Made by a program: the position numbers and the translations under genes. The notes under the pieces are model-generated. The model did no database searches, was not told the DNA's origin, and was given only the letters and a program-made list of their open reading frames with translations. DNA of 64,000 bases from Clostridiales bacterium (lineage in GTDB: Bacteria > Bacillota > Clostridia > Lachnospirales > Lachnospiraceae): the NCBI GenBank assembly GCA_021202925.1, contig JAJQCD010000017.1, positions 1 through 64,000 on the forward strand, given 5' to 3'. Below are positions 1 through 14,086 of the stretch, in pieces. Position 1 is the stretch's first letter. Every line of letters starts with the position of its first letter.

Positions 1-35
1 TCGATTTCCTTACGGAACATATCCTTAATCAGCAT
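1..35 (-). CDS. brxC: BrxC, start of BREX ATPase gene (partial)
   Basis: Only the first eleven or so codons lie in the window, reading M-L-I-K-D-M-F-R-K-E-I before the left edge. BrxC proteins, the large P-loop ATPases of BREX phage defence, often start with a similar short stretch in which MF is followed by a basic residue and a hydrophobic one. The start is chosen because AGAGG lies 7 nt upstream of the ATG; in-frame ATGs at 53 and 56 have no such site. Position directly after brxA and brxB matches the type 1 BREX order. The assignment rests mainly on context, because so little protein is visible. Confidence 0.6.
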   Translation of the reverse strand, partial: MLIKDMFRKEI

Positions 36-74
36 TTCAATACCTCTTTCCATCATTTTCGCGTAAGCAATGAG

Positions 75-133
75 CCAAGTGAATATTTATATTCATTTGG
101 CGACTGCCCGCGAGCTGAAAACCTGTTTTCAGC
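75..133 (-). other. Two hairpins between brxB and brxC
   Basis: Two inverted repeats fill the brxB-brxC junction. The first (75-85 with 90-100) has an 11-nt arm, a 4-nt loop and one imperfect pair. The second (114-121 with 126-133) is a perfect 8-bp stem with a 4-nt loop and overlaps the brxB stop codon. Neither is followed by a T-run on the minus strand, so they look like RNA processing, stability or partial attenuation elements within the operon rather than a terminator. Confidence 0.45.
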
Positions 134-707
134 GCACGAGCTTGAACGCCCGATAGTAATTGTCGTCTTTTATCTCATTAAACAGGATCAATTCCTGCTC
201 ATTGTAAGTTCCGGGGAAGAACAGCACCACCGGCACCCTGACAAATGCCTGGTGCAGATTGTTCAGCACCTTGTGGGAACGCAGGATGGGATAGCATTTC
301 CCGATTCCGGTCAGAAACACAACCGCGTTCTCCGGCGTGTGGTCTTTGATGTACTGGACAATCAGGCTGTCATCATCGTTGATCTTCATGGAATTGTTGA
401 CCGCTTTTGTGATTCGATCAAAGCCACGTTTCTGCTCGAAGCCATAGCACTTGTCCATGAAGTTCTTATCAATCAGAAAGTCTATGATGATGTCATAGAG
501 GTCGAAAACAACCAGTTCAAACCCGTCTGTCCCTTTCTGATTTTTGTTCTGTAGATACGCGATGCGCTCACGAACCTCCAGTTTCTGCTCCGGGGGATAA
601 TCAAAAATCCAGTAATTCACTTCATTCGCACGTCCGCTGCTGCTACGAAAGGAAGGCTTCCGGATCGCCTTTTCCATTTCGTCCAGCCGTGCAGCCAGGT
701 CTGCCAT
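129..707 (-). CDS. brxB: BrxB, BREX protein (DUF1788 family)
   Basis: A 192-residue protein with the DUF1788/BrxB pattern: the GIGKCYPILRSH stretch near residue 135, a following PVVLFFPG strand and turn, and a C-terminal NYYRAFKL block. BrxB is one of the conserved small proteins of type 1 BREX phage defence; its biochemical role is poorly defined. The start codon overlaps the brxA stop as TAATG, with GGGGGTG 5 nt upstream, which implies translational coupling. Length is normal for the family and no disruption is seen. The next gene on this strand is the start of brxC. Confidence 0.88.
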   Translation of the reverse strand: MADLAARLDEMEKAIRKPSFRSSSGRANEVNYWIFDYPPEQKLEVRERIAYLQNKNQKGTDGFELVVFDLYDIIIDFLIDKNFMDKCYGFEQKRGFDRITKAVNNSMKINDDDSLIVQYIKDHTPENAVVFLTGIGKCYPILRSHKVLNNLHQAFVRVPVVLFFPGTYNEQELILFNEIKDDNYYRAFKLVR

Positions 708-1387
708 TATCTCACCCCCGTCAGTGCTTTTACGAGTACACCCATGTCATGCTCATTCAGCCAACGCTCAAACATGGGGTCTAAAATCGGTCTGAATATC
801 TTTCTGGTTTCTTTTGCCTTGTGACCCAGGCCATCTTCCACCCCAGAGTGCCTTCTCGCCCTGTCGGACTCACCTTGTCGCCCTGTCGGGCTCACCTTAT
901 CCGTGATGCCAGCCTCATAGAGCAGGGTTTTATAACACCGCCCCAGGCGGTTCAGCGTTTCGTCCGTCCATCTGGCTGTTTTTTCATCCTGTATCTGTTT
1001 GTCTTTAAAGAAAATCCGCACGTCGCTGTCGCTCAATTCATTGCTGCCGATGATCAGTTTTTCCCGGACGACTTCATACACAAAATCAAAAAACAATGCA
1101 TCAGTGGCCATAATAGCAACAAGGTTAAATAGCTTCTGTGTTGCCAGATCACTTTCCAAAAAAACAGGATAAAAGCTCTCATCCAGACTCTGCACCCGCG
1201 TTGTTACCGTACTGCAGATCTGTTTCGCTCTTGCTGGGGTAGAAGTCGCAAAAAGGTTCTTCTCCTGACTCAGCCGTTTGATGTCCTCATATGTTTTACC
1301 TTCGCCGCGAAGCTCTACAACTTTCCGAAATTCCATAAACCAGAAGGACAGTTTCACGGCCCCCGCGCTGTATTCTTTCCGCTCCAT
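707..1387 (-). CDS. brxA: BrxA, BREX protein (DUF1819 family)
   Basis: A 226-residue protein matching the BrxA/DUF1819 family: an N-terminal KLSFWFMEFRKVVEL helix with a helix-turn-helix-like segment, a central RVQSLDES block, and a C-terminal segment ending VLVKALTG. BrxA is a small DNA-binding component of type 1 BREX. GAGGAG lies about 11 nt upstream of the ATG. The linker near residues 164-179 is encoded by a 22-bp tandem repeat that is not a multiple of three, so the two copies are read in different frames. Despite this the whole gene is open and the C-terminus looks native. It is the first brx gene after a promoter at 1462-1489. Confidence 0.88.
   Translation of the reverse strand: MERKEYSAGAVKLSFWFMEFRKVVELRGEGKTYEDIKRLSQEKNLFATSTPARAKQICSTVTTRVQSLDESFYPVFLESDLATQKLFNLVAIMATDALFFDFVYEVVREKLIIGSNELSDSDVRIFFKDKQIQDEKTARWTDETLNRLGRCYKTLLYEAGITDKVSPTGRQGESDRARRHSGVEDGLGHKAKETRKIFRPILDPMFERWLNEHDMGVLVKALTGVR
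851..898 (-). repeat. 22-bp tandem repeat inside brxA
   Basis: Two adjacent 22-bp units (851-872 and 873-894) differ at two positions and are followed by the first 4 bases of a third unit. Each contains a short inverted repeat, GCCC-TGTC-GGGC in the second copy. Because 22 is not divisible by 3, the copies encode different peptides, KVSPTGRQ and GESDRARR. Gain or loss of one unit would shift the brxA frame. Confidence 0.85.
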
Positions 1388-1450
1388 ATAATCAGGTTCT
1401 CCTCATGATGCTGTTTTTTCGATCTAATGTACCCTTTTCAGGTCGCTAAA

Positions 1451-1468
1451 ATATAAGAATTATTATAT
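1451..1468. promoter_or_regulatory. Inverted repeat overlapping the brxA -10 box (candidate operator)
   Basis: A perfect 6-bp inverted repeat (1451-1456 ATATAA and 1463-1468 TTATAT) separated by 6 nt overlaps the predicted -10 element of the brxA promoter. BREX regulators of the BrxR type, which carry wHTH and WYL domains, bind inverted repeats near BREX promoters, and a WYL regulator is encoded two genes upstream. The sequence is A+T-rich, so chance is a real alternative. Confidence 0.35.
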
Positions 1469-1489
1469 CATGGGCAAACACAAAAACAA
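1462..1489 (-). promoter_or_regulatory. Promoter for brxABC
   Basis: On the minus strand TTGTTT (1489-1484) and TATAAT (1467-1462) are separated by 16 nt. Transcription would start near 1455, giving a leader of about 65 nt before brxA. It lies between the helicase stop codon and brxA, so the brx genes can be transcribed separately from the helicase. Confidence 0.55.
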
Positions 1490-1545
1490 AGGTAAAACTC
1501 GGCGGTCTCAGGAACTTTTAAGCAAACCCAGGAAGTACTTTATAC

Positions 1546-4500
1546 TCATATCTCCCACGGTTTCAAAAAATGCCCTCTGTCACAGCGAATATATGGTCCA
1601 TACCTTCCAACCGCTCCCTCGATACAGCCTCCGTCCTTCGGACAGCATACATTCCTTACAATGATGTACCAATTCATGAGTTCTTTCCCCAGATACTTTA
1701 TGGTATCACAATCTTTTCCGGAGCATTTCAGGTACGCCATACCCTTCGCATTTCTGGTAAGAATCAGATGGCTTTTACATTTGGGACAGAATTCCTTTTC
1801 TTCCACAAATCCTCCCAACCCCGGCGGAATGATCTCGCCTTCTCCGCCATCACATGTCGGCAGGTGCATAGAAGCACCTTTTTTCTGCAACAACGGTTTC
1901 GTGTTTATCCCCGCCTTTATCATTTCCAGATTAGTCAGGGCTTTGATCATCTCAACTGTGTTGTCCCCATCGATTCGAACCATGACAGGAACAACCGTAT
2001 CCTGTCCTGTAGTCTTATCCACCTGAAAGCGCAGTCTGGATGTTGGCAGTCCATACCACACAACCCGGTCATCAATTACAAGCAATGGAAATACCGCATT
2101 ATCTGCGCCAAAGCAATACGTCTTCCAGGTATCCGGCAAATCCTGATAACCATTGGATTTCATCAGGATCGCAACACCACGCCGATAAGCATCATCAATG
2201 ATGCCAATGATCCGTTCTTCTGTTTCCCTGAGATTCCCATCCGGAATTGACAAGACCACCCTGCCTTTGGCTCGTTTGATATCTTTTTCAAGCTCAGCGA
2301 TGGCTTCATTCTCTTCCGTATAAATACGAATCATCTTATCGGGGTTTACGGATTCGATATATGACTTCAGGTTATGATTCTGAGCGTGATTCACCACATT
2401 ATGATTGACCGACAGGTATTCCAGAAGCCGATAATAAATATGATTTGTTCCTTTAAATGTGCTTTGCCAGAACCGGACATTGGCCACAGTGATCAATTTT
2501 CCCCTTGCGCGAGTGACAGCAACATTAATCAATCTGATAACGGCATCCATATCTTTCCCCAGCAGGAAGCCCACCTTATGGGTTGGATAACTTTCTACCG
2601 CATCGAAAATCAAAACATCTGATTCCGAGCCCTGGTACTGATGCACAGTTGCACAACTGACCTTCTCAGTGCCAGACGGATAATAATCCCGCAGCATGGC
2701 CCGAATCAGACGGGTCTGAGCTGCATAAGGTGTTATAATGCCTACCGTCTCCGCTGTACCGTCCTGATCAGCCCTGACAGCTGTTGAGAAAGAAATAACA
2801 GCGCTTAATAGATTAAATCTTGAATTGTCACTGTTTTTATCAGCTGCACAGTACGTTCCGGTCAGATCAATCAGGTTCATGGCATCTCCCGGCAACGGAG
2901 CCGAAGCCACGATAGAATCCCGGTTGTGAAGGACAGACTTATCGTTTTTCAACAACCTCTGATATACAAATCGATTGGGGAATGCAGAGATATCCGGATG
3001 CATGCGACGCTGTTCGTTCAACATGACAAGCCATGGATGACCGTACATCTTCCCCAGATTATCCGTAATTCGTAGATACGAAAAGATATCTCTCTGCAAA
3101 ATTGGTTTTGCCCCGGTACTCTGAGCAATCGGCGACAGCTGCCTGAAATCTCCGACACACATAAATTTCTCTCTGGCCAGAGCTGCCGCTGCTATGATCT
3201 GCGGAACGTAAGCCATCGATACCTCGTCAAACATAACGAGATCATACTGGCGATCCTCAAACATACCATCTATGGTAGCTTTTGAGATCGTCGTCCCCAG
3301 AATCCTTGCTTTCTCCGCGTATTTCTTTTCCTCTTTCCGGATTGCCTCCCGGATCCCTTTCATATTTTTCTCAACCAGATGATAGGCGTCTGTCTTTATC
3401 TGGTTTTTTGCCTTCATCTTATCTTTCTGCGCACTCAGAACATCCAGCTCTTTTCTGAGCGTCGGATTCTTTGCGAGAGCGTAGTTAAACGAAGTCGCAT
3501 ATTCATGATTGGCAAGCTCGGTATCCCGAACATACCCATATCGAAGGATACTGCCTTTCTGCAGATATGATTTTACAGACGTGTCCGGCATATTCAGCAC
3601 CTGTTTGATCACACCATCCACAGAAACGTTACTGTGAGAAACAATCAAAACCGATTTTCCGCGCTTCAGATAATCAATCGCAATCATAGCCATTGTATAA
3701 ATCTTACCGGTTCCTGGAGGTCCCCAGACTACCACGATATCCTCTTTTTTCAGTTTGCTGATTACCGCCGGCTGACCTTTGGGAATTTTGGTGATATCCG
3801 ATTTTCCTGCCAGTTTCGGTCCTTCTTCCATCAACTTTATGGCAAGTCTGTGGACATCGGGATTCAGGGAATTCATCTTTTTGTCCAGACTCTCCAGCAA
3901 TTTCCAGGGTTCAACTGTAATATACGCAGTCCTTACGCGGTCGTTCAGATCCCGATTCAGCATAAGCGTGATCTGGAAGTCATCGCATACGAGTACAGAT
4001 CCGGAGGCATGCAATCCCGCGGCTGTTTCAACCGTTACCGGAGCATCGTCCGGCAGATGAAGCTCGGTCTCCATTTCAAAAGTATAGGTATAAATTCCCT
4101 GGTTGTCTTTATGAAGTTTCTCGCCATTGACAACCTTATACTTTTTTCCTCTGCCCTGTTTTAGAAAACTAATTTCTTTTTTCAGGGCTTCCGAAAACTG
4201 CTCGAGACTGGGAGAAGTAAAAATCGATGCATCTGCTCCGACATTACTTGTCACTGTTGCCAAAGAAAGACTCTTCGATTTATTGGATTTGCCGATCGCT
4301 GATAGAGATTTATTTTTCAGGAGCCCGCGTATGCCCTGCATCTTTTCTCGCTCGGAATCGCTCATTTTATAAATGGAAATTTGCTGTAACTTCCAGCTTT
4401 TGGAATTGGGAAGGAAGTAAGTGACCACAATTTTCTTCTGATTGCTGCAAAGGAACGTCAGCTCCACCTTTGAATCTTTCAGGTAAATTCTTTTTCCGGA

Positions 4501-4794
4501 AGTCGGTACTTCTACAGAAAACTTTGTGTTCTTTGTCCCAGATAGGAACATCTGATAATCCATGACAGAAGAATGAACCCGCTTAAATGCATCCGTCACC
4601 TTGCATTTTTCCAAAATAGAATCTACAGTCTCCCCAGTTTCCTGATAATTAAATACAGACGTAATTTCCACATGATCACTATATTCCATGTAAATGGGAA
4701 GATTCAATTTAAAATGCACATCAAAATAATTTTTGCAGACTATCGGATTATCATGACCTTTTTCCGCTATAGTACTTTCATCACTTATCCCCAT
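1546..4794 (-). CDS. SF1 (UPF1/DNA2-like) helicase with PLD-like and zinc-ribbon C-terminus
   Basis: A 1,082-residue protein with superfamily 1 helicase motifs in order: Walker A GPPGTGKI ending at residue 365, DEVS at 523-526, the QLSP motif soon after, NEQRR from 593, TVHQYQGSE, and VAVTRARG near 758-765. A region at about 815-930 resembles a phospholipase D-like fold but lacks the HxK signature. The C-terminus has CPKC/C-x5-C and CCPKD...C zinc ribbons like those of topoisomerase I. The start at 4794 is chosen for GGGAG 8 nt upstream; an in-frame ATG at 4809 lacks a site. Walker A carries Ile (codon ATT) where Thr or Ser binds Mg-ATP. It sits between a WYL regulator and brxA, so a defence role is inferred from context only. 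It is not the SF2 helicase BrxHI/BrxHII. Confidence 0.8.
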   Translation of the reverse strand: MGISDESTIAEKGHDNPIVCKNYFDVHFKLNLPIYMEYSDHVEITSVFNYQETGETVDSILEKCKVTDAFKRVHSSVMDYQMFLSGTKNTKFSVEVPTSGKRIYLKDSKVELTFLCSNQKKIVVTYFLPNSKSWKLQQISIYKMSDSEREKMQGIRGLLKNKSLSAIGKSNKSKSLSLATVTSNVGADASIFTSPSLEQFSEALKKEISFLKQGRGKKYKVVNGEKLHKDNQGIYTYTFEMETELHLPDDAPVTVETAAGLHASGSVLVCDDFQITLMLNRDLNDRVRTAYITVEPWKLLESLDKKMNSLNPDVHRLAIKLMEEGPKLAGKSDITKIPKGQPAVISKLKKEDIVVVWGPPGTGKIYTMAMIAIDYLKRGKSVLIVSHSNVSVDGVIKQVLNMPDTSVKSYLQKGSILRYGYVRDTELANHEYATSFNYALAKNPTLRKELDVLSAQKDKMKAKNQIKTDAYHLVEKNMKGIREAIRKEEKKYAEKARILGTTISKATIDGMFEDRQYDLVMFDEVSMAYVPQIIAAAALAREKFMCVGDFRQLSPIAQSTGAKPILQRDIFSYLRITDNLGKMYGHPWLVMLNEQRRMHPDISAFPNRFVYQRLLKNDKSVLHNRDSIVASAPLPGDAMNLIDLTGTYCAADKNSDNSRFNLLSAVISFSTAVRADQDGTAETVGIITPYAAQTRLIRAMLRDYYPSGTEKVSCATVHQYQGSESDVLIFDAVESYPTHKVGFLLGKDMDAVIRLINVAVTRARGKLITVANVRFWQSTFKGTNHIYYRLLEYLSVNHNVVNHAQNHNLKSYIESVNPDKMIRIYTEENEAIAELEKDIKRAKGRVVLSIPDGNLRETEERIIGIIDDAYRRGVAILMKSNGYQDLPDTWKTYCFGADNAVFPLLVIDDRVVWYGLPTSRLRFQVDKTTGQDTVVPVMVRIDGDNTVEMIKALTNLEMIKAGINTKPLLQKKGASMHLPTCDGGEGEIIPPGLGGFVEEKEFCPKCKSHLILTRNAKGMAYLKCSGKDCDTIKYLGKELMNWYIIVRNVCCPKDGGCIEGAVGRYGPYIRCDRGHFLKPWEI

Positions 4795-4891
4795 ACAGCA
4801 GACTCCCATCTTGTTTTTATCTGATCCTATTATCCCACTTATCGTGTCCTATAAAAAGGTCTTATTATCCGAACTGTCGTTCTCTTTTGGC

Positions 4892-5881
4892 TTATTCGTA
4901 CTGTTTTGCCAGACGACAAATCTCTTCTTTCACTTCTGCCACTACTGACTCCGAACCGATGATTTTTGCTCCGGCACCCAGTGCCATCACCCAATGGATA
5001 AACTGATTGCTCACGACTACTTTTACGCTGACAGAAAAATGCTGCTCGTCCTCTTTTATAATGCTGACTCCTTTTCCGAAGCGATCTATGATTGCTCCGA
5101 CAAGACTGTTCTCACAACACAGCTTCACAATTTCTTCCCTGCCGCCATACATTCCAAATACTTTCCGCGCATAGACAGCCATGTCAAATTCCTTGAATTG
5201 CTCTCGTCCTTCGCGCCTTTCCTTTACACTTTCAATTCGGAGCATCTTGTCCACGCGAAAATGTTTGATTTTGCCTGCCGCATTGTCATATGCAATCAGG
5301 TAATAATTCTCATCGTCCCAGCTGAGCGCCCAGGGGCTGACCTGATAGTACGCGCCATTGTGCCGCAACTCCGTCTTCTTTTTTACATTCCACTGGAAAT
5401 ACTGGAAACGAATCTGCTCGTTGTCAGCAATCGCGCCATGAATCGCATCTACATTATAATAGATGCTTTCATTCATAGTCTTAATCCGCTGCGCCACATA
5501 CACCTGACGCTGCAACTGGCTGGCCTCATGCTTACTTGCAAGCCCTTCAATCTTTTTAATCAGTTCATTTGATTTTCCAGCCGTTATGAATTTTGCGGAC
5601 TGTACGGAGTCTACCAGAAGTTTTAGCTCTGCAAGCTCGAACCGACGATTGACTACCCGATAATAATAGGTACGTTCCTGATGTTCCCCGATGATGTCTA
5701 TCCCATACTGGCGCAGACTTTCCATGTCACTGTAAAGGCTTTTTCTCTCCGCCGTAATCCCATAACTGCTCAGTTTTGCTATAATCTCCGGCATGCTGAT
5801 ACTGTGCGTCTCATCGGTTTCTTCCAGCAAAATTTTCATCAGATATAATATTTTCAGTTTTTGATTTGGTCCCTTCGCCAT
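4892..5881 (-). CDS. WYL-domain transcriptional regulator
   Basis: A 329-residue protein with an N-terminal winged helix-turn-helix (about 1-70, including TAERKSLYSDMESLRQYG), a WYL domain at about 145-222 (WALSWDDENYYLIAYD followed by HFRVDKML), and a C-terminal WCX-like segment. WYL regulators sense ligands, often nucleic acid or nucleotides, and many control phage defence loci; BrxR/CapW are examples beside BREX and CBASS. The start MAKGPNQKL is preceded by GGGGTG 6 nt upstream. An in-frame upstream ATG would add 19 residues not expected in the family. The location, in line with the helicase and brx genes, suggests it controls this island. Confidence 0.85.
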   Translation of the reverse strand: MAKGPNQKLKILYLMKILLEETDETHSISMPEIIAKLSSYGITAERKSLYSDMESLRQYGIDIIGEHQERTYYYRVVNRRFELAELKLLVDSVQSAKFITAGKSNELIKKIEGLASKHEASQLQRQVYVAQRIKTMNESIYYNVDAIHGAIADNEQIRFQYFQWNVKKKTELRHNGAYYQVSPWALSWDDENYYLIAYDNAAGKIKHFRVDKMLRIESVKERREGREQFKEFDMAVYARKVFGMYGGREEIVKLCCENSLVGAIIDRFGKGVSIIKEDEQHFSVSVKVVVSNQFIHWVMALGAGAKIIGSESVVAEVKEEICRLAKQYE

Positions 5882-6041
5882 AGCGTCACCCCACATTTTT
5901 TCTATGCAAGCATAACATGAAATAACCTGTATTTCCACTATTTTCTCATTTGTGAGTCCAAAAATGGTACTTATACTAACGTGCAGGCAATTGCCAGTTT
6001 ATCCTTCTCGCCTTTTTCTCTGTCATATTGCGTACGCCGCC

Positions 6042-6662
6042 TCAACAAAATGATAGTTTTCTATATTCTTCGTTTCCGTTCTCTATCTTGCGGAACAGAT
6101 CATCCAGCTGTCTGGCCTGTTGCCGTCGCTGTCTGCGACGCGCTGAGGCCTGATATTTTCTGTCAATCCGGATCCGTCCAAGATTCCCATTCGCTGCTGT
6201 CTCTGCTTTTCGAAACTCATCGTGCTTATATATGTACATAAACGCGCCAATCAACGACCTCACGTAGCGGATATCTTTCTGCCGGTGATATTGCTCTTTC
6301 TCCGGATGCTCGAAACTCGATGGCCTTCCTTTGTGATTCCGGTGAAAAATTGAAAAGTTCTGTGTATCTGTCCAATAAACGATTTTCCAGCAGCTCATAC
6401 CTGTCCTTATGTAAATCGCGTCTGAAATCATTTTGAACTCCAGTTCCTTATGCTCACTGTATCTTTGCAGATTACCCAATTCTTTCTCCATCCTGAATTT
6501 CATTGTATTACAGCATTTACACGGCCTGTAGCCACTTCTTTCCATGTCACGTCGCGACTGACCTAATCTGTTTTTCGGCAAAATACTTTTTATAAAACGA
6601 CATTCAGGATAATGATATACTCTTTCGCCGCTGTGCAAACTGGCGACTCTCGCATTACTCAT
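6042..6662 (-). CDS. Small protein with Ada-like HxxxC...CxxC metal site, unknown function
   Basis: I cannot name the full 206-residue protein. Residues 13-51 resemble the zinc-binding N-terminal module of the Ada methyltransferase: H17-x3-C21, then GYRPCKCC with C48 and C51. Ada has four cysteines, so the first ligand would be His here. The remainder (TGMSCWKIVYWTD..., then a basic C-terminus with many Arg) matches nothing I recognise. The start is set by AAGGAGG 5-6 nt upstream; the open frame extends 24 codons further without a site. It lies on the same strand and directly upstream of the WYL regulator, so it may belong to the defence island. A nucleic-acid-binding role is inference. Confidence 0.55.
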   Translation of the reverse strand: MSNARVASLHSGERVYHYPECRFIKSILPKNRLGQSRRDMERSGYRPCKCCNTMKFRMEKELGNLQRYSEHKELEFKMISDAIYIRTGMSCWKIVYWTDTQNFSIFHRNHKGRPSSFEHPEKEQYHRQKDIRYVRSLIGAFMYIYKHDEFRKAETAANGNLGRIRIDRKYQASARRRQRRQQARQLDDLFRKIENGNEEYRKLSFC

Positions 6663-8612: not shown

Positions 8613-9566
8613 ATGAGCCTACAATATTTTATAAGAAAATTTATCACTCTCATTTTGACATTGTTGTTGATTACCCTGCTAACCTTCACGGCGTTTACCA
8701 TAATTCCCGGCGATGCAGCCATATCAAAGCTGGGAACGGATGCGACCGAAGAACAGGTGGAGGCGTTACGCGAAGAACTGGGATTCAACGACCCGCTTCC
8801 CCTGCGCTATATCAACTGGCTCACATCAGCCCTGCATGGTGATTTCGGAGAATCCTATCAGTACAGTGGCGTCACCGTAGCTGAGCTTTTAACCGCCCGG
8901 TTTCCGGTGACGCTCCTTCTGGCAACCCTGTCCCTGATTCTGATTCTGGTTGTTTCTTTTCCTCTCGGAATGTTATGCGCCATGTACACAGGGAAATGGC
9001 CGGATACCCTGATCAACCAGCTAAGCCAGATTACCATGGCTGTTCCCGCCTTTTTTCTGGGAATGATGATGACATGGCTGTTCGGCCTGGTTTTGAAATG
9101 GTTCCAGCCCGGTGCCTTCATTGACCCATTCGAAGACTTCATCGGCTGTGTGCGCTACATGATTTTCCCCACCATCGCAGTGGCGCTGCCCAAAATCGCC
9201 ATGGTCGTGAAATTCCTGCGCAATTCCATTCTAAATGAGCTGCATCAGGACTATGTGCGCACGGCCCGCAGCAAGGGTGTGCGCTCCCTCCGTGTGCTTT
9301 ACGGCCATGTGCTGAAAAACGCCCTGATCCCTGTGATCACCTTTCTCGCCATGATCCTCGCGGAAATCCTCGCCGGCAGCATCGTGGTAGAACAGGTCTT
9401 TGGCCTGCCCGGCATGGGACGGCTTTTAATCACCTCCATCTCCGCCAGAGACTATCCGGTGGTGCAGGCCATTGTTACCTATATCACCACGGTGGTGGTA
9501 CTGATCAATTTTATCGTCGATGTTTTGTATCAGTTTGTAGACCCCAGGGTCCGGACAACGTCGTAA
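8613..9566 (+). CDS. Peptide ABC transporter permease, DppB/OppB type, system A
   Basis: A 317-residue inner-membrane permease with about six transmembrane segments, an N-terminal hydrophobic helix (FIRKFITLILTLLLITLLTF), the IIPGD motif, and the cytoplasmic EAA-type loop ending in the DYVRTARSKGV segment that contacts the ATPase. The typical start MSLQYFIRKF is used; the open frame begins inside the receptor gene and the upstream part is not membrane-protein-like. The ribosome site (CAGGTG) is weak, which would lower expression relative to the receptor. Partner of the DppC-type permease that follows 19 nt later. Confidence 0.92.
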   Translation: MSLQYFIRKFITLILTLLLITLLTFTAFTIIPGDAAISKLGTDATEEQVEALREELGFNDPLPLRYINWLTSALHGDFGESYQYSGVTVAELLTARFPVTLLLATLSLILILVVSFPLGMLCAMYTGKWPDTLINQLSQITMAVPAFFLGMMMTWLFGLVLKWFQPGAFIDPFEDFIGCVRYMIFPTIAVALPKIAMVVKFLRNSILNELHQDYVRTARSKGVRSLRVLYGHVLKNALIPVITFLAMILAEILAGSIVVEQVFGLPGMGRLLITSISARDYPVVQAIVTYITTVVVLINFIVDVLYQFVDPRVRTTS

Positions 9567-9585
9567 TGGCCACGGGAGGTATTCT

Positions 9586-10389
9586 ATGAAAAAACAAAGG
9601 AACTACAATCTGATCATCGGCCTTGCCCTCACCATCGCACTCGCCCTGATGGCCCTCATCGGCCACTTCTGGACGCCCTGTTCTCCTACAGCCATGGATG
9701 CCTCCGCCGTCAACCTGGCTCCCTGCCTGAAGTATCCATTGGGAACGGACAATTTCGGCCGCGATATTTTAAGCCGCATCATGAACGGCAGCGGAATCAC
9801 GTATCTGGTCGCGGTCTGTACCGTCCTGATCGGAGCCGTAGGCGGAACCATCATCGGCGCGTTTACCGGTTATTTCGGCGGAATTCCGGATGAGATTGTG
9901 ATGCGTCTGAACGATGTCCTTCTCTCCTTTCCCAGCGTCCTGCTGGCCCTGCTGTTTATCAGCTTTCTGGGAGAGGGCACGGCCAATCTGATCCTGGCTC
10001 TGGGAGTCCTTTTTATCCCCAGCTTCGCGCGCATTGTCCGAAGTGAAATGATACGATGCCGGGATCTGGATTTTGTGCGCAGTGCAAAGGTCACAGGCGT
10101 GGGGACGTTGCGCATTATATTCGCCCATATTCTGCCGAATTCGCTGGTCAGCATGCTCACCAGCGCGGCAATTGGTTTCAACAACGCGGTACTGGCAGAA
10201 GCCAGTATGAGCTACCTGGGGCTGGGCGTACAGCCGCCCCACGCCAGTCTGGGCCGAATGCTGTCGGAAGCGCAGTCCTGCCTGTATGTAGCGCCCTGGT
10301 ACGCGATTGCGCCAGGCGTGACCATTATTCTGATGATACTGGGATTCAGTCTGATCAGCGAAGGACTGCGGAAGGTACAGAACCATTAA
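9586..10389 (+). CDS. Peptide ABC transporter permease, DppC/OppC type, system A
   Basis: A 267-residue permease with an N-terminal transmembrane helix, the periplasmic-loop signature YPLGTDNFGRDILSRI, and the coupling-loop segment DFVRSAKVTGVGTLRIIFAHILPN. These are the marks of the second permease of peptide/nickel transporters. GGGAGGT lies 6 nt before the ATG. It forms the channel with the preceding DppB-type protein and uses the fused ATPase encoded 81 nt downstream. Confidence 0.92.
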   Translation: MKKQRNYNLIIGLALTIALALMALIGHFWTPCSPTAMDASAVNLAPCLKYPLGTDNFGRDILSRIMNGSGITYLVAVCTVLIGAVGGTIIGAFTGYFGGIPDEIVMRLNDVLLSFPSVLLALLFISFLGEGTANLILALGVLFIPSFARIVRSEMIRCRDLDFVRSAKVTGVGTLRIIFAHILPNSLVSMLTSAAIGFNNAVLAEASMSYLGLGVQPPHASLGRMLSEAQSCLYVAPWYAIAPGVTIILMILGFSLISEGLRKVQNH

Positions 10390-12308: not shown

Positions 12309-13149
12309 CTATTTCAAAAAATAAACTTTGGACTTTGTTTTTCCATCACTAATAAGTATGCCAAATTTCTCTGCCTTCCGGAGCAATGCTCCGGCTGTTT
12401 TTACCTGTACATTTAACAATTCTGCAGCTGTATTACTCCTAATTTTACCATTCTGATGTAGATATTCTATAATCACATACATTCTTTTCTGTTCAAGCTT
12501 AGACATATGTTCAGACAATATTTCCACTTTCGATTCGCCCATTGATTCGCCCATTCGGCCATGGGCGAATCCTTCTCTGCATCGAATCGTTGTAATTAAA
12601 TATGTCCTGTCTTCATCTGTCTCAAATTCTGGTTCCGGTGAACCATTCTTTTGCAGCTCACGTAAAATCTTTGTAATACCTGTCGACTGCTTCTCGGACA
12701 GATCTAAGTCTTTCAAAAATTCACCAATCCGTCGATTTCGATATTTACGAGCTCTTACTTTCCCGGCCGCAAACTTGTCCATATCAATCCAACGATACGG
12801 CCCCGGATAGTTAATAATCTGAATATAGTTCAAATATATCCTGATTTCCACTGGTTCCGGATCCCGATATAGTTTGTGAAATTCTGCGTTTACCAAAGCT
12901 TCTTCTAAAGCATTATAGGGATAGTTAAAATATCGCTCCGCCTTTGCCTCCAGTAAGAGGAAACTGTGGGATACCATCCTCTGCTTTTACACCAATAACA
13001 AGATAACCTCCATTTACATTAGAATAATCATTTGCAAACGAGCAAATCGTGTGTATGATATCATTTGGGTTCCAACCTTCTTTATATTCTACGCGGTTCT
13101 GCTCAACAACCCGACCAGCCAGCAAAGTATCTATTTTTAAAGGAATCAT
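12309..13149 (-). pseudogene. AlbA_2/HATPase_c_4 (RecG-like) DNA-binding protein, deleted and frameshifted
   Basis: Two fragments of one gene. The 5' part (from 13149) encodes an AlbA_2 start: RVEYKEGWNP, then SFANDYSNVNGGYLVIGV, then GIPQFPLTG. The 3' part, in another frame from about 12960 down, resumes at EAKAERYFNYPYNALEEALVNA and continues through YRNRRIGEFLKDLDL to a C-terminal winged-helix-like segment ending at 12309. Intact relatives have roughly 200 more residues between these blocks, so an internal deletion plus frameshift has joined FPLTG to EAKAER near 12955. Relatives are predicted ATP-binding DNA-associated regulators, often near toxin-antitoxin or defence genes. The 3' part contains MGES repeats encoded by a 12-bp unit. 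Confidence 0.82.
12532..12571 (-). repeat. 12-bp coding repeat forming an 11-bp hairpin
   Basis: Inside the AlbA_2 pseudogene the unit encoding MGES is present twice (12532-12554) and again inverted at 12561-12571. The arms 12544-12554 and 12561-12571 are exactly complementary around a 6-nt loop, the same loop length as the larger hairpin at 12248-12299. Confidence 0.8.
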
Positions 13150-13187
13150 GATCAGCTCTCCTGCTACAATATATTTATGGGTTAGAT

Positions 13188-13239
13188 ACCTCAGAACAGA
13201 TGCTCCCGGTAACTGCCATCCGACTGCAATTCCTCAAAA
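13188..13239 (-). pseudogene. Duplicated 3' end of the NUDIX gene
   Basis: This 52-bp segment matches 14166-14217, the last codons and stop of the NUDIX gene, with only two mismatches. It lies right after the MBL hydrolase stop codon and has no gene body attached. It is a duplication scar. Confidence 0.85.
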
Positions 13240-13240
13240 G

Positions 13241-14086
13241 TTACAGTTCAAACCGCATCCCTGTCGTAAGTCGGTGCATCCGATCCCCCAACCGGTTGCG
13301 AAGCTTCTCAAACCCCGGCGTCCCGGTACAGTGTCCGGTATAAATCTGTTCCACGCCCTCCTGCACAAGAACCGCACAGAGTGCGTCAATCTCCGCATCT
13401 GAGAAAGCACAGATTTCCCGATCGTCCTTTTTACCTTTCATATGCAGGCCGCCAACATAGACATAAACCTGTTTTTGTCCACAGGCCTCTTTTACTTCCC
13501 GAATGATATTGGCAACACCCGCATGGGAACAGCTGTTAAAAATCACCAGACCATACCCCGTATCGATCACCAGACTCTGCTCATGCGCAAAATCATCGGG
13601 AACAATACGACCGTCCAGACGTTTGTACAGCCCGCTCTTTTCTCCGATCCGCTCCAGCCCTTCTGTATGGTGCGGCACAAGAAAGATTCCGGGAAGAATC
13701 TCCCTGAAGCCATCCACCAGAATGAACCGGTCCCGATGCAATGCTACCTGCTGCGGCACACTGATTTCATGCATTCCTCCGCTCGCAGATAAATAAGTAT
13801 CCAGCGCTTCCTGCCGCGCATATACTTTTGCAGCCGGGTCTCTGAGAAAAACCTTCCCAAAGCCGCCGGAATGATCATAATGTCCATGTGACAGAACACA
13901 GGCGTCCAGGCCAGTCAGAGGAATTCCCAGTGCATCCGCATTCCCGCAGAAAGCTTCCGTGCTTCCTGCGTCCAGCAATATCCGTTTTCCTGCATATTCA
14001 ATCAAAAGACTGAGCCCGTGTTCACAGGCAAGGATCCCATCCGACGTATTTTCAATCAGTACGGTTACGCGAATCGCATCGCTCAT
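13241..14086 (-). CDS. MBL-fold metallo-hydrolase
   Basis: A 281-residue metallo-beta-lactamase-fold protein. Metal ligands are visible: H67-G-H69-Y-D71-H72 (HGHYDHSGG), H188 in CSHAG, and H252 in TGHCTG, with GGLHM at 213-217. This arrangement matches the group annotated as 7,8-dihydropterin-6-methyl-4-(beta-D-ribofuranosyl)aminobenzene 5'-phosphate synthase-like, whose actual substrates in Firmicutes are mostly unknown. Predicted to bind two metal ions and act in the cytoplasm; no signal peptide. The ATG has only a modest purine-rich site upstream (GGAATAAAAATTT). The NUDIX gene lies 82 nt upstream on the same strand, and both have a tail copy nearby, so the pair may once have been duplicated. 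Confidence 0.82.
   Translation of the reverse strand: MSDAIRVTVLIENTSDGILACEHGLSLLIEYAGKRILLDAGSTEAFCGNADALGIPLTGLDACVLSHGHYDHSGGFGKVFLRDPAAKVYARQEALDTYLSASGGMHEISVPQQVALHRDRFILVDGFREILPGIFLVPHHTEGLERIGEKSGLYKRLDGRIVPDDFAHEQSLVIDTGYGLVIFNSCSHAGVANIIREVKEACGQKQVYVYVGGLHMKGKKDDREICAFSDAEIDALCAVLVQEGVEQIYTGHCTGTPGFEKLRNRLGDRMHRLTTGMRFEL

Follow-up and report, generated by a model that had tools for sequence, protein, structure and literature searches.

Auxiliary genes, most of them for nucleases, are known to accumulate around bacteriophage exclusion (BREX) and classical restriction systems. Auxiliary effectors listed for BREX are nucleases of the PD-(D/E)XK, HNH, HKD, OLD/TOPRIM, HEPN, PIN, and Schlafen types (PMC12839542); CnuH of CoCoNuT types II and III is a UPF1-like helicase of superfamily 1 (SF1) tied to type IV restriction, and type I restriction–modification (RM) systems and BREX occur in the same superoperons as CoCoNuT (PMC11090510); Mokosh has a phospholipase D (PLD)-like domain (PMC10952713); and WYL regulators other than the one considered here are reported to bind single-stranded DNA (PMC11804915, PMC12340889). 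Here we describe the first 64,000 bases (hereafter, the window) of contig JAJQCD010000017.1 of a Clostridiales bacterium, where genes for a UPF1-like SF1 helicase, a WYL regulator, and a small zinc-motif protein stand upstream of the BREX gene brxA.

On balance, we lean toward reading this locus as the 5′ end of a BREX operon joined by two separately inherited cassettes, with the helicase as an auxiliary layer of defense and the WYL and zinc-motif proteins as a regulator pair. The genes are on the minus strand, in the transcription order zinc-motif protein, WYL regulator, SF1 helicase, brxA, brxB, and start of brxC. An earlier note, made from the sequence alone, had recognized brxA, brxB, the first codons of brxC, and the three extra genes upstream on the same strand, and Pfam and PADLOC matches together with a reading of the sequence bear it out. 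As in type 1 BREX, brxA and brxB are adjacent and co-directional. The nearest core is in genome G021, in the order XRE, brxA, brxB, brxC, an Eco57I-type methylase in the place of pglX, a Schlafen AlbA_2 protein, pglZ, and brxL, which, judged from its genes, is a full type 1 layout. The window holds the 5′ end of a BREX operon, most likely of type 1, as predicted from G021. The window starts at base 1 of the 137.6-kb contig (C12), which cuts brxC after its first codons and rules out the leftward extension proposed in the earlier note. In the rest of the assembly, no PglZ was found in a PF08665 family search (pglX and brxL were not searched), and no BrxC was found in a search with the G021 BrxC protein that had no positive control. 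The PF08665 model hits the type 1 PglZ of G021 (E = 1.7e-53); thus, the search of the window genome could have detected a PglZ.

The neighborhoods of the helicase are the central evidence. A long form (1050–1173 residues) is present at seven loci (the window, G020, L007, G956, G1128, G931, and G1237), with restriction-type genes within 5 kb at six of them, or at five of six when the near-copies G931 and G1237 are counted once. At all six such loci, these genes are co-directional with the helicase. They represent BREX (in two diverged cores), type III RM, type I RM (in two near-copies), and the type IV system GmrSD, four kinds in all. In G020, the helicase is followed by a small XRE gene (HTH_26) and then brxA, brxB, and brxC (domain E = 1.5e-44), the contig ending in the next gene; the core is diverged, its brxB being 28% identical to that of the window. 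In L007, type III Mod (E = 5.3e-203) and Res (E = 8.8e-289) are encoded upstream, the Res stop codon lying 3 bases before the helicase frame, with DUF4391 and an HKD-Snf2 protein further up. In G931, the helicase is followed by Fic, HsdM (E = 5.1e-182), HsdS, and an integrase, and then at 5.5 kb by a second HsdS and at 6.6 kb by HsdR; G1237 is a near-copy (97% over 7 kb spanning helicase, Fic, and HsdM). In G956, GmrSD is 1.4 kb upstream of the helicase (PF03235, E = 4.4e-35). No restriction-type gene was seen in G1128, where the contig leaves just 1.6 and 1.3 kb around the helicase. The clade has the look of an accessory to restriction systems of any kind rather than a part of BREX; a BREX-specific helicase was rejected because the clade also accompanies type I, III, and IV systems.

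Two of these loci have further features. Between the near-copies (L132 and L136, in G931 and G1237), helicase, Fic, and hsdM are ∼97% identical and the stretch with hsdS and the integrase differs, an apparent case of specificity switching. In G956 (L130), a 363-residue protein is encoded between GmrSD and the helicase (8783–9874), with no Pfam match at E ≤ 0.001 or PADLOC match at E ≤ 1e-5.

As a control, we took all complete frames of at least 150 residues within 5 kb of the WYL gene at 20 fetched loci, 19 of which gave 104 proteins. These match 44 PADLOC families at E ≤ 1e-20. No restriction endonuclease, methyltransferase, Brx, or Pgl model is among the best 25 of the 44 families, which cover matches down to E = 1.7e-42; the remaining 19 are single-protein matches weaker than this.

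The helicase clade is rare and well supported within UPF1-like helicases. In a tree rooted at its midpoint only, the six long forms included (G1237 was found later) are set apart by a branch with 100/100 support. In the counts that follow, samples overlap and include the genome of the window or the genome on which the sample is centered. Among 145 related genomes, only the window genome and G020 have the helicase at E ≤ 1e-30. Relatives are in eight of 398 genomes of the phylum (E ≤ 1e-60), two of 391 of the class (E ≤ 1e-100), and four of 397 of the family (N-terminal alignment, E ≤ 1e-6), and searches of 111 relatives each of G956 and G931 gave one and two genomes, respectively. Nine pattern matches were obtained across 84,980 species, each represented by one genome, and include L007 and L006 (28,203 bases), the latter read as the same as G020. 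A scan of viral contigs gave 88 pattern matches and no relative, and phage records gave no match at E ≤ 1e-20. Plasmid records contain three distant relatives, one solitary (L105) and two among mostly hypothetical genes (L106 and L107). The window and G020 copies share 96% DNA identity over 3225 bases, in a match that leaves out the first 13–20 codons and stops exactly with the reading frame, at the stop codon; their flanks have no blastn match. The ratio of nonsynonymous to synonymous substitution rates (dN/dS) is 0.17 between these copies and 0.14–0.15 against L007, with dS >1.2. The helicase is under purifying selection.

The two cassettes occur apart. The helicases of G020 and L007 have no adjoining zinc-motif or WYL gene, and the 19.5 kb read at the zinc–WYL pair of G063 include neither a BREX core nor a long-form helicase. 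A joint accessory module of helicase and zinc-motif protein, a possibility raised in the earlier note, was rejected because these contexts separate them; the helicase does recur before another BREX core, in G020. The slot before brxA is variable. Across 17 brxA loci, an SF1 helicase is just before brxA in three (the window, G020 with the XRE gene between, and G032), a NERD protein in one (G101), and an XRE gene in seven by eye (G020 included; two checked by Pfam); one gene further up are LmuB in G077 and DUF2326 in G026. The helicase of G032 (L103, 3674–6142) is a different UPF1-like protein with a C-terminal DUF2726, directly before the brxA of another BREX core. We suggest that cassette 1 (the helicase) and cassette 2 (the WYL and zinc-motif genes) were inherited separately and placed in this slot.

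The helicase consists of an N-terminal extension, a beta-rich domain, two RecA cores, a PLD-like region, and C-terminal cysteine pairs. SMUBP-2, an RNA helicase-like protein, and UPF1 rank first among its PDB relatives, ahead of SEN1 and DNA2. In PADLOC it matches MkoA over residues 344–804 and MkoC (E = 7.6e-30; best stretch 595–882). Mokosh type I has a kinase domain or an MkoB partner; the window helicase has no kinase match in Pfam at E ≤ 1, and its neighbors are WYL and brxA. Of the PLD-like and zinc-ribbon regions initially assigned to it, the former has no PLD family match and the latter is weak in the window (Zn_ribbon_RPB9, E = 0.0047, under the cut-off) and clear in a relative in G524 (E = 3.5e-19). 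The sole hint of PLD is the MkoC profile match running to residue 882, and six C-terminal regions of the family gave no PLD Pfam match at E ≤ 1. A PLD-like strand, IDD..WYG, is conserved in the family; of 15 members, the strand was located in 13, and in these, read by eye, the H and K of PLD do not stand at the expected spacing. For this reason, and for want of a PLD profile match, PLD nuclease activity was rejected. A comparison by hhalign with the N-terminal part of an HKD-Snf2 neighbor likewise gave nothing (probability 0.3). The zinc-ribbon end of the L007 helicase runs on in another frame (12960–13265), an apparent frameshift. In the Walker A motif (window 3700–3723), the window copy reads GKI, with an ATT codon for Ile, in contrast to the T or S of the 14 remaining family members. 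Given what this position is known to do, the Ile probably impairs ATP use. About 100 N-terminal residues of the L007 helicase are missing in both the window and G020 copies.

We propose that the helicase is most likely an auxiliary, second-layer defense protein, an ATP-driven translocase that would bind single-stranded nucleic acid or ends arising as phage DNA is restricted and stall or remodel them. It would not be a subunit of any one restriction system. The WYL regulator, with its zinc-motif partner, probably controls the operon through a nucleic-acid damage signal, like other WYL regulators. A broader idea, which we offer tentatively and with some doubt, is that the UPF1-like clade is a general companion of restriction, exchanged among BREX and type I, III, and IV systems and acting on a common intermediate, unwound or cut phage DNA. 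If true, it would provide a second layer of defense independent of which system made the intermediate.

Several points weigh against an auxiliary defense role and the proposed regulation. Adjacency shows company, not joint function, and there are just seven long-form loci, two of which are near-copies. The control is unevenly matched: neighbors of the helicase were hand-picked by eye and those of the control are all complete proteins of at least 150 residues. The control also has the defense families HerA, SIR2, PbeA, RecD-like, and mad3, with PDC models also present, and its locus L079 carries a PLD-ResIII helicase. The window helicase may be inactive, to judge from Ile in place of the Walker A Thr and the shortened N-terminus, and its structure model is unusable (mean predicted local distance difference test [pLDDT] of 34; best parts at residues ∼200–280 and 430–470). 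Operon control by the WYL regulator is proposed from gene order and spacing; promoter counts, like terminator counts, are near those of shuffles. Moreover, of 11 shorter relatives of the helicase (∼740–880 residues, one cut at 527), two (G524 and G227) are in defense-type loci, six are solitary, one is cut, and two were not judged. By eye, the solitary copies are among other genes in G148, G195, G411, G337, G746, and a Cytobacillus plasmid; the copy in G262 is cut by a contig end, and the other two are cyanobacterial plasmid copies. The mixed contexts of the shorter relatives weigh against describing the helicase family as a whole as one of defense.

In G524, BrxF, PglXI, PglZ, and Mrr models match upstream of the shorter helicase, apparently a reduced BREX type 3 locus. 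There (L116, 2009–5073), the BrxF and PglXI models fall on one 325-residue frame, and the frame at 4048–5073 matches the C-terminal half of the PglZ model only. In G227, the shorter helicase is 468 bases from a divergent set of DUF499, DUF7680, and DUF1156 genes; DUF499-centered systems are the BREX-related systems of PMC12839542. The 197-residue gene of this set was tried as DUF3780, which was rejected because Pfam gives DUF7680.

The helicase could instead be a stand-alone defense gene, Mokosh- or Hhe-like, that shares islands with functionally unrelated restriction systems. This is quite possible, if not the explanation we favor. Its best PADLOC matches are the MkoA and MkoC helicases, its partners vary by locus, and more than half of its shorter relatives are solitary. 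Against this, some copies stand close to a neighboring gene (3 bases from res in L007; 158 bases from brxA in the window), and at each of the six loci there is a restriction-type system, which runs in the direction of the helicase.

We consider it unlikely that the stretch is a decaying relic, in which the helicase is impaired and BREX has been truncated by loss of its other genes. The GKI of Walker A, the shortened N-terminus, and an insert in brxA are consistent with decay, as is the lack of PglZ or BrxC elsewhere in the assembly, PF08665 being able to match type 1 PglZ. However, all frames in the window are open, the helicase is constrained relative to G020, and the contig simply ends inside brxC. 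Draft assemblies commonly miss contigs of islands.

Less likely still, the WYL gene is the BREX regulator BrxR. Its WYL-WCX architecture (WCX PF25583 at 23.6 bits vs. a cut-off of 23.9) and position before a BREX core fit BrxR, homologues of which are known beside BREX (PMC9122601). But no brxA, brxB, or brxC cluster member is present at its 20 best other loci (53–68% identical; 3.3–19.5 kb each), and the BREX loci examined here more often have XRE before brxA. In the PDB it has weak matches (best E = 0.069, PafBC); no entry carries the name BrxR, and several are named just “WYL domain-containing protein.” The initial interpretation is borne out in part: extra genes precede a BREX start, and the helicase clade accompanies restriction systems and has a copy before another BREX core; the WYL gene is not specific to BREX. 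Its regulator family is a common one within this bacterial family: WYL relatives are in 49 of the 145 related genomes, own included (E ≤ 1e-20), and their neighbors, by eye, include SbcCD-, RecD2-, HIRAN-, and NrdD-like genes, which suggest DNA repair. In G090 (L093, 10022–17832), a BREX core is followed by OLD-TOPRIM and UvrD genes, a Gabija-like pair, and by a distant WYL relative (28% identical).

No family in Pfam, PADLOC, or NCBIfam matches the zinc-motif protein at E ≤ 1. The protein matches 14 of the 145 genomes at E ≤ 1e-3, own included, and only the match in G063 (E = 3.6e-15) spans its whole length; 12 bases after the end of that gene comes a WYL gene with 65% identity to the one in the window. 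The other 12 cover the zinc motif in 11 cases and the C-terminal part in G085, and two of these partial matches proved on checking to be DNA/RNA non-specific endonucleases. Its first description as Ada-like is backed only through L018, which has the same motif and matches PF02805 under the cut-off (E = 5.9e-4); the window protein has no PF02805 match at E ≤ 1. Its structure model is unusable (mean pLDDT of 42), and a search for operator motifs shared before WYL genes gave weak inverted repeats only. The zinc-motif protein is a probable partner of the WYL gene, and the partnership, seen at two loci, is suggestive only.

That the helicase is a dedicated BREX subunit or accessory, as BrxHI and BrxHII are in other BREX types, is very improbable: two diverged cores have it just ahead of brxA, and in G032 a different helicase of the UPF1-like type takes this place, for a total of three of 17 brxA loci, but the genomes with the closest cores (G021 and G016; brxB 83–86% identical) lack it, and the clade is also beside type I, III, and IV systems with no BREX genes in the stretches read there.

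Table 1. Features at the left end of the window
Feature	Coordinates	Strand	Evidence and remarks
brxC first codons (MLIKDMFRKEI...)	1..35	-	Read from sequence; cut by contig end; in-frame ATGs also at 53 and 56
brxB	129..707	-	PF08747, E = 1.9e-42; PADLOC BrxB, E = 1.1e-70; 86% identical to G021
brxA	707..1387	-	PF08849, E = 5.4e-55; PADLOC, E = 4.3e-72
UPF1-like SF1 helicase, 1087 residues	1546..4809	-	AAA_11, E = 2.7e-19; AAA_12, E = 3.5e-32; PADLOC MkoA, E = 1.1e-51
WYL-WCX regulator	4892..5881	-	ATG start at 5881; longer GTG start at 5938; PF13280, E = 2.3e-12
Small zinc-motif protein, 206 residues	6042..6662	-	N-terminal Ada-like zinc motif; one full-length relative (G063)

The in-frame insert of brxA has ∼24 residues near the C-terminus (window 856–896), holds a 19-base repeat twice, and is missing from nine other aligned BrxA proteins; the repeat has no further copy in the window at up to two mismatches. 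The stretch was also described as more A+T-rich than what follows, and it is (GC of 0.41–0.49 across 1–7 kb vs. 0.51–0.55 across 7–12 kb), with a return to 0.42 at 12–13 kb. In this second dip, a 222-residue protein with an HATPase_c_4 domain is encoded (12309–12977). It clusters with Schlafen AlbA_2 proteins and resembles only their C-terminal part; proteins of the Schlafen AlbA_2 type also occur within the BREX of G021 and following the helicase in L007.

One helicase clade beside four kinds of restriction would indicate a shared post-recognition step that helicases exploit or repair. The loci that could address this form a small testable set: G931/G1237 with type I RM, L007 with type III, G956 with GmrSD, and G020 with BREX. 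We found no description, by title or the start of the abstract, of such a clade beside several restriction types; with most subscription papers and supplements out of reach, this is weak evidence that the clade is new.

Compared with described systems, the window helicase resembles MkoA and MkoC of Mokosh in its UPF1-like SF1 core and defense setting, and differs in having no kinase, NERD, or PLD family match, in missing the PLD H and K, and in having restriction systems as neighbors. It resembles CnuH in being UPF1-like and in its restriction company, but the kind of restriction varies among long-form loci, where translations read by eye include no McrBC-type CnuB or CnuC and no TerY-P neighbors. 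Like the auxiliary effectors of BREX, the helicase is a variable extra gene directly beside core genes; in contrast, the main text of PMC12839542, apart from its supplements, has “SF1” once, in the title of a reference. Lastly, the WYL gene is similar to BrxR (PMC9122601) in encoding a WYL regulator that has a C-terminal domain and in its place ahead of a BREX core. It differs in that its closest relatives read in the same bacterial family sit away from BREX and in having a zinc-motif partner.

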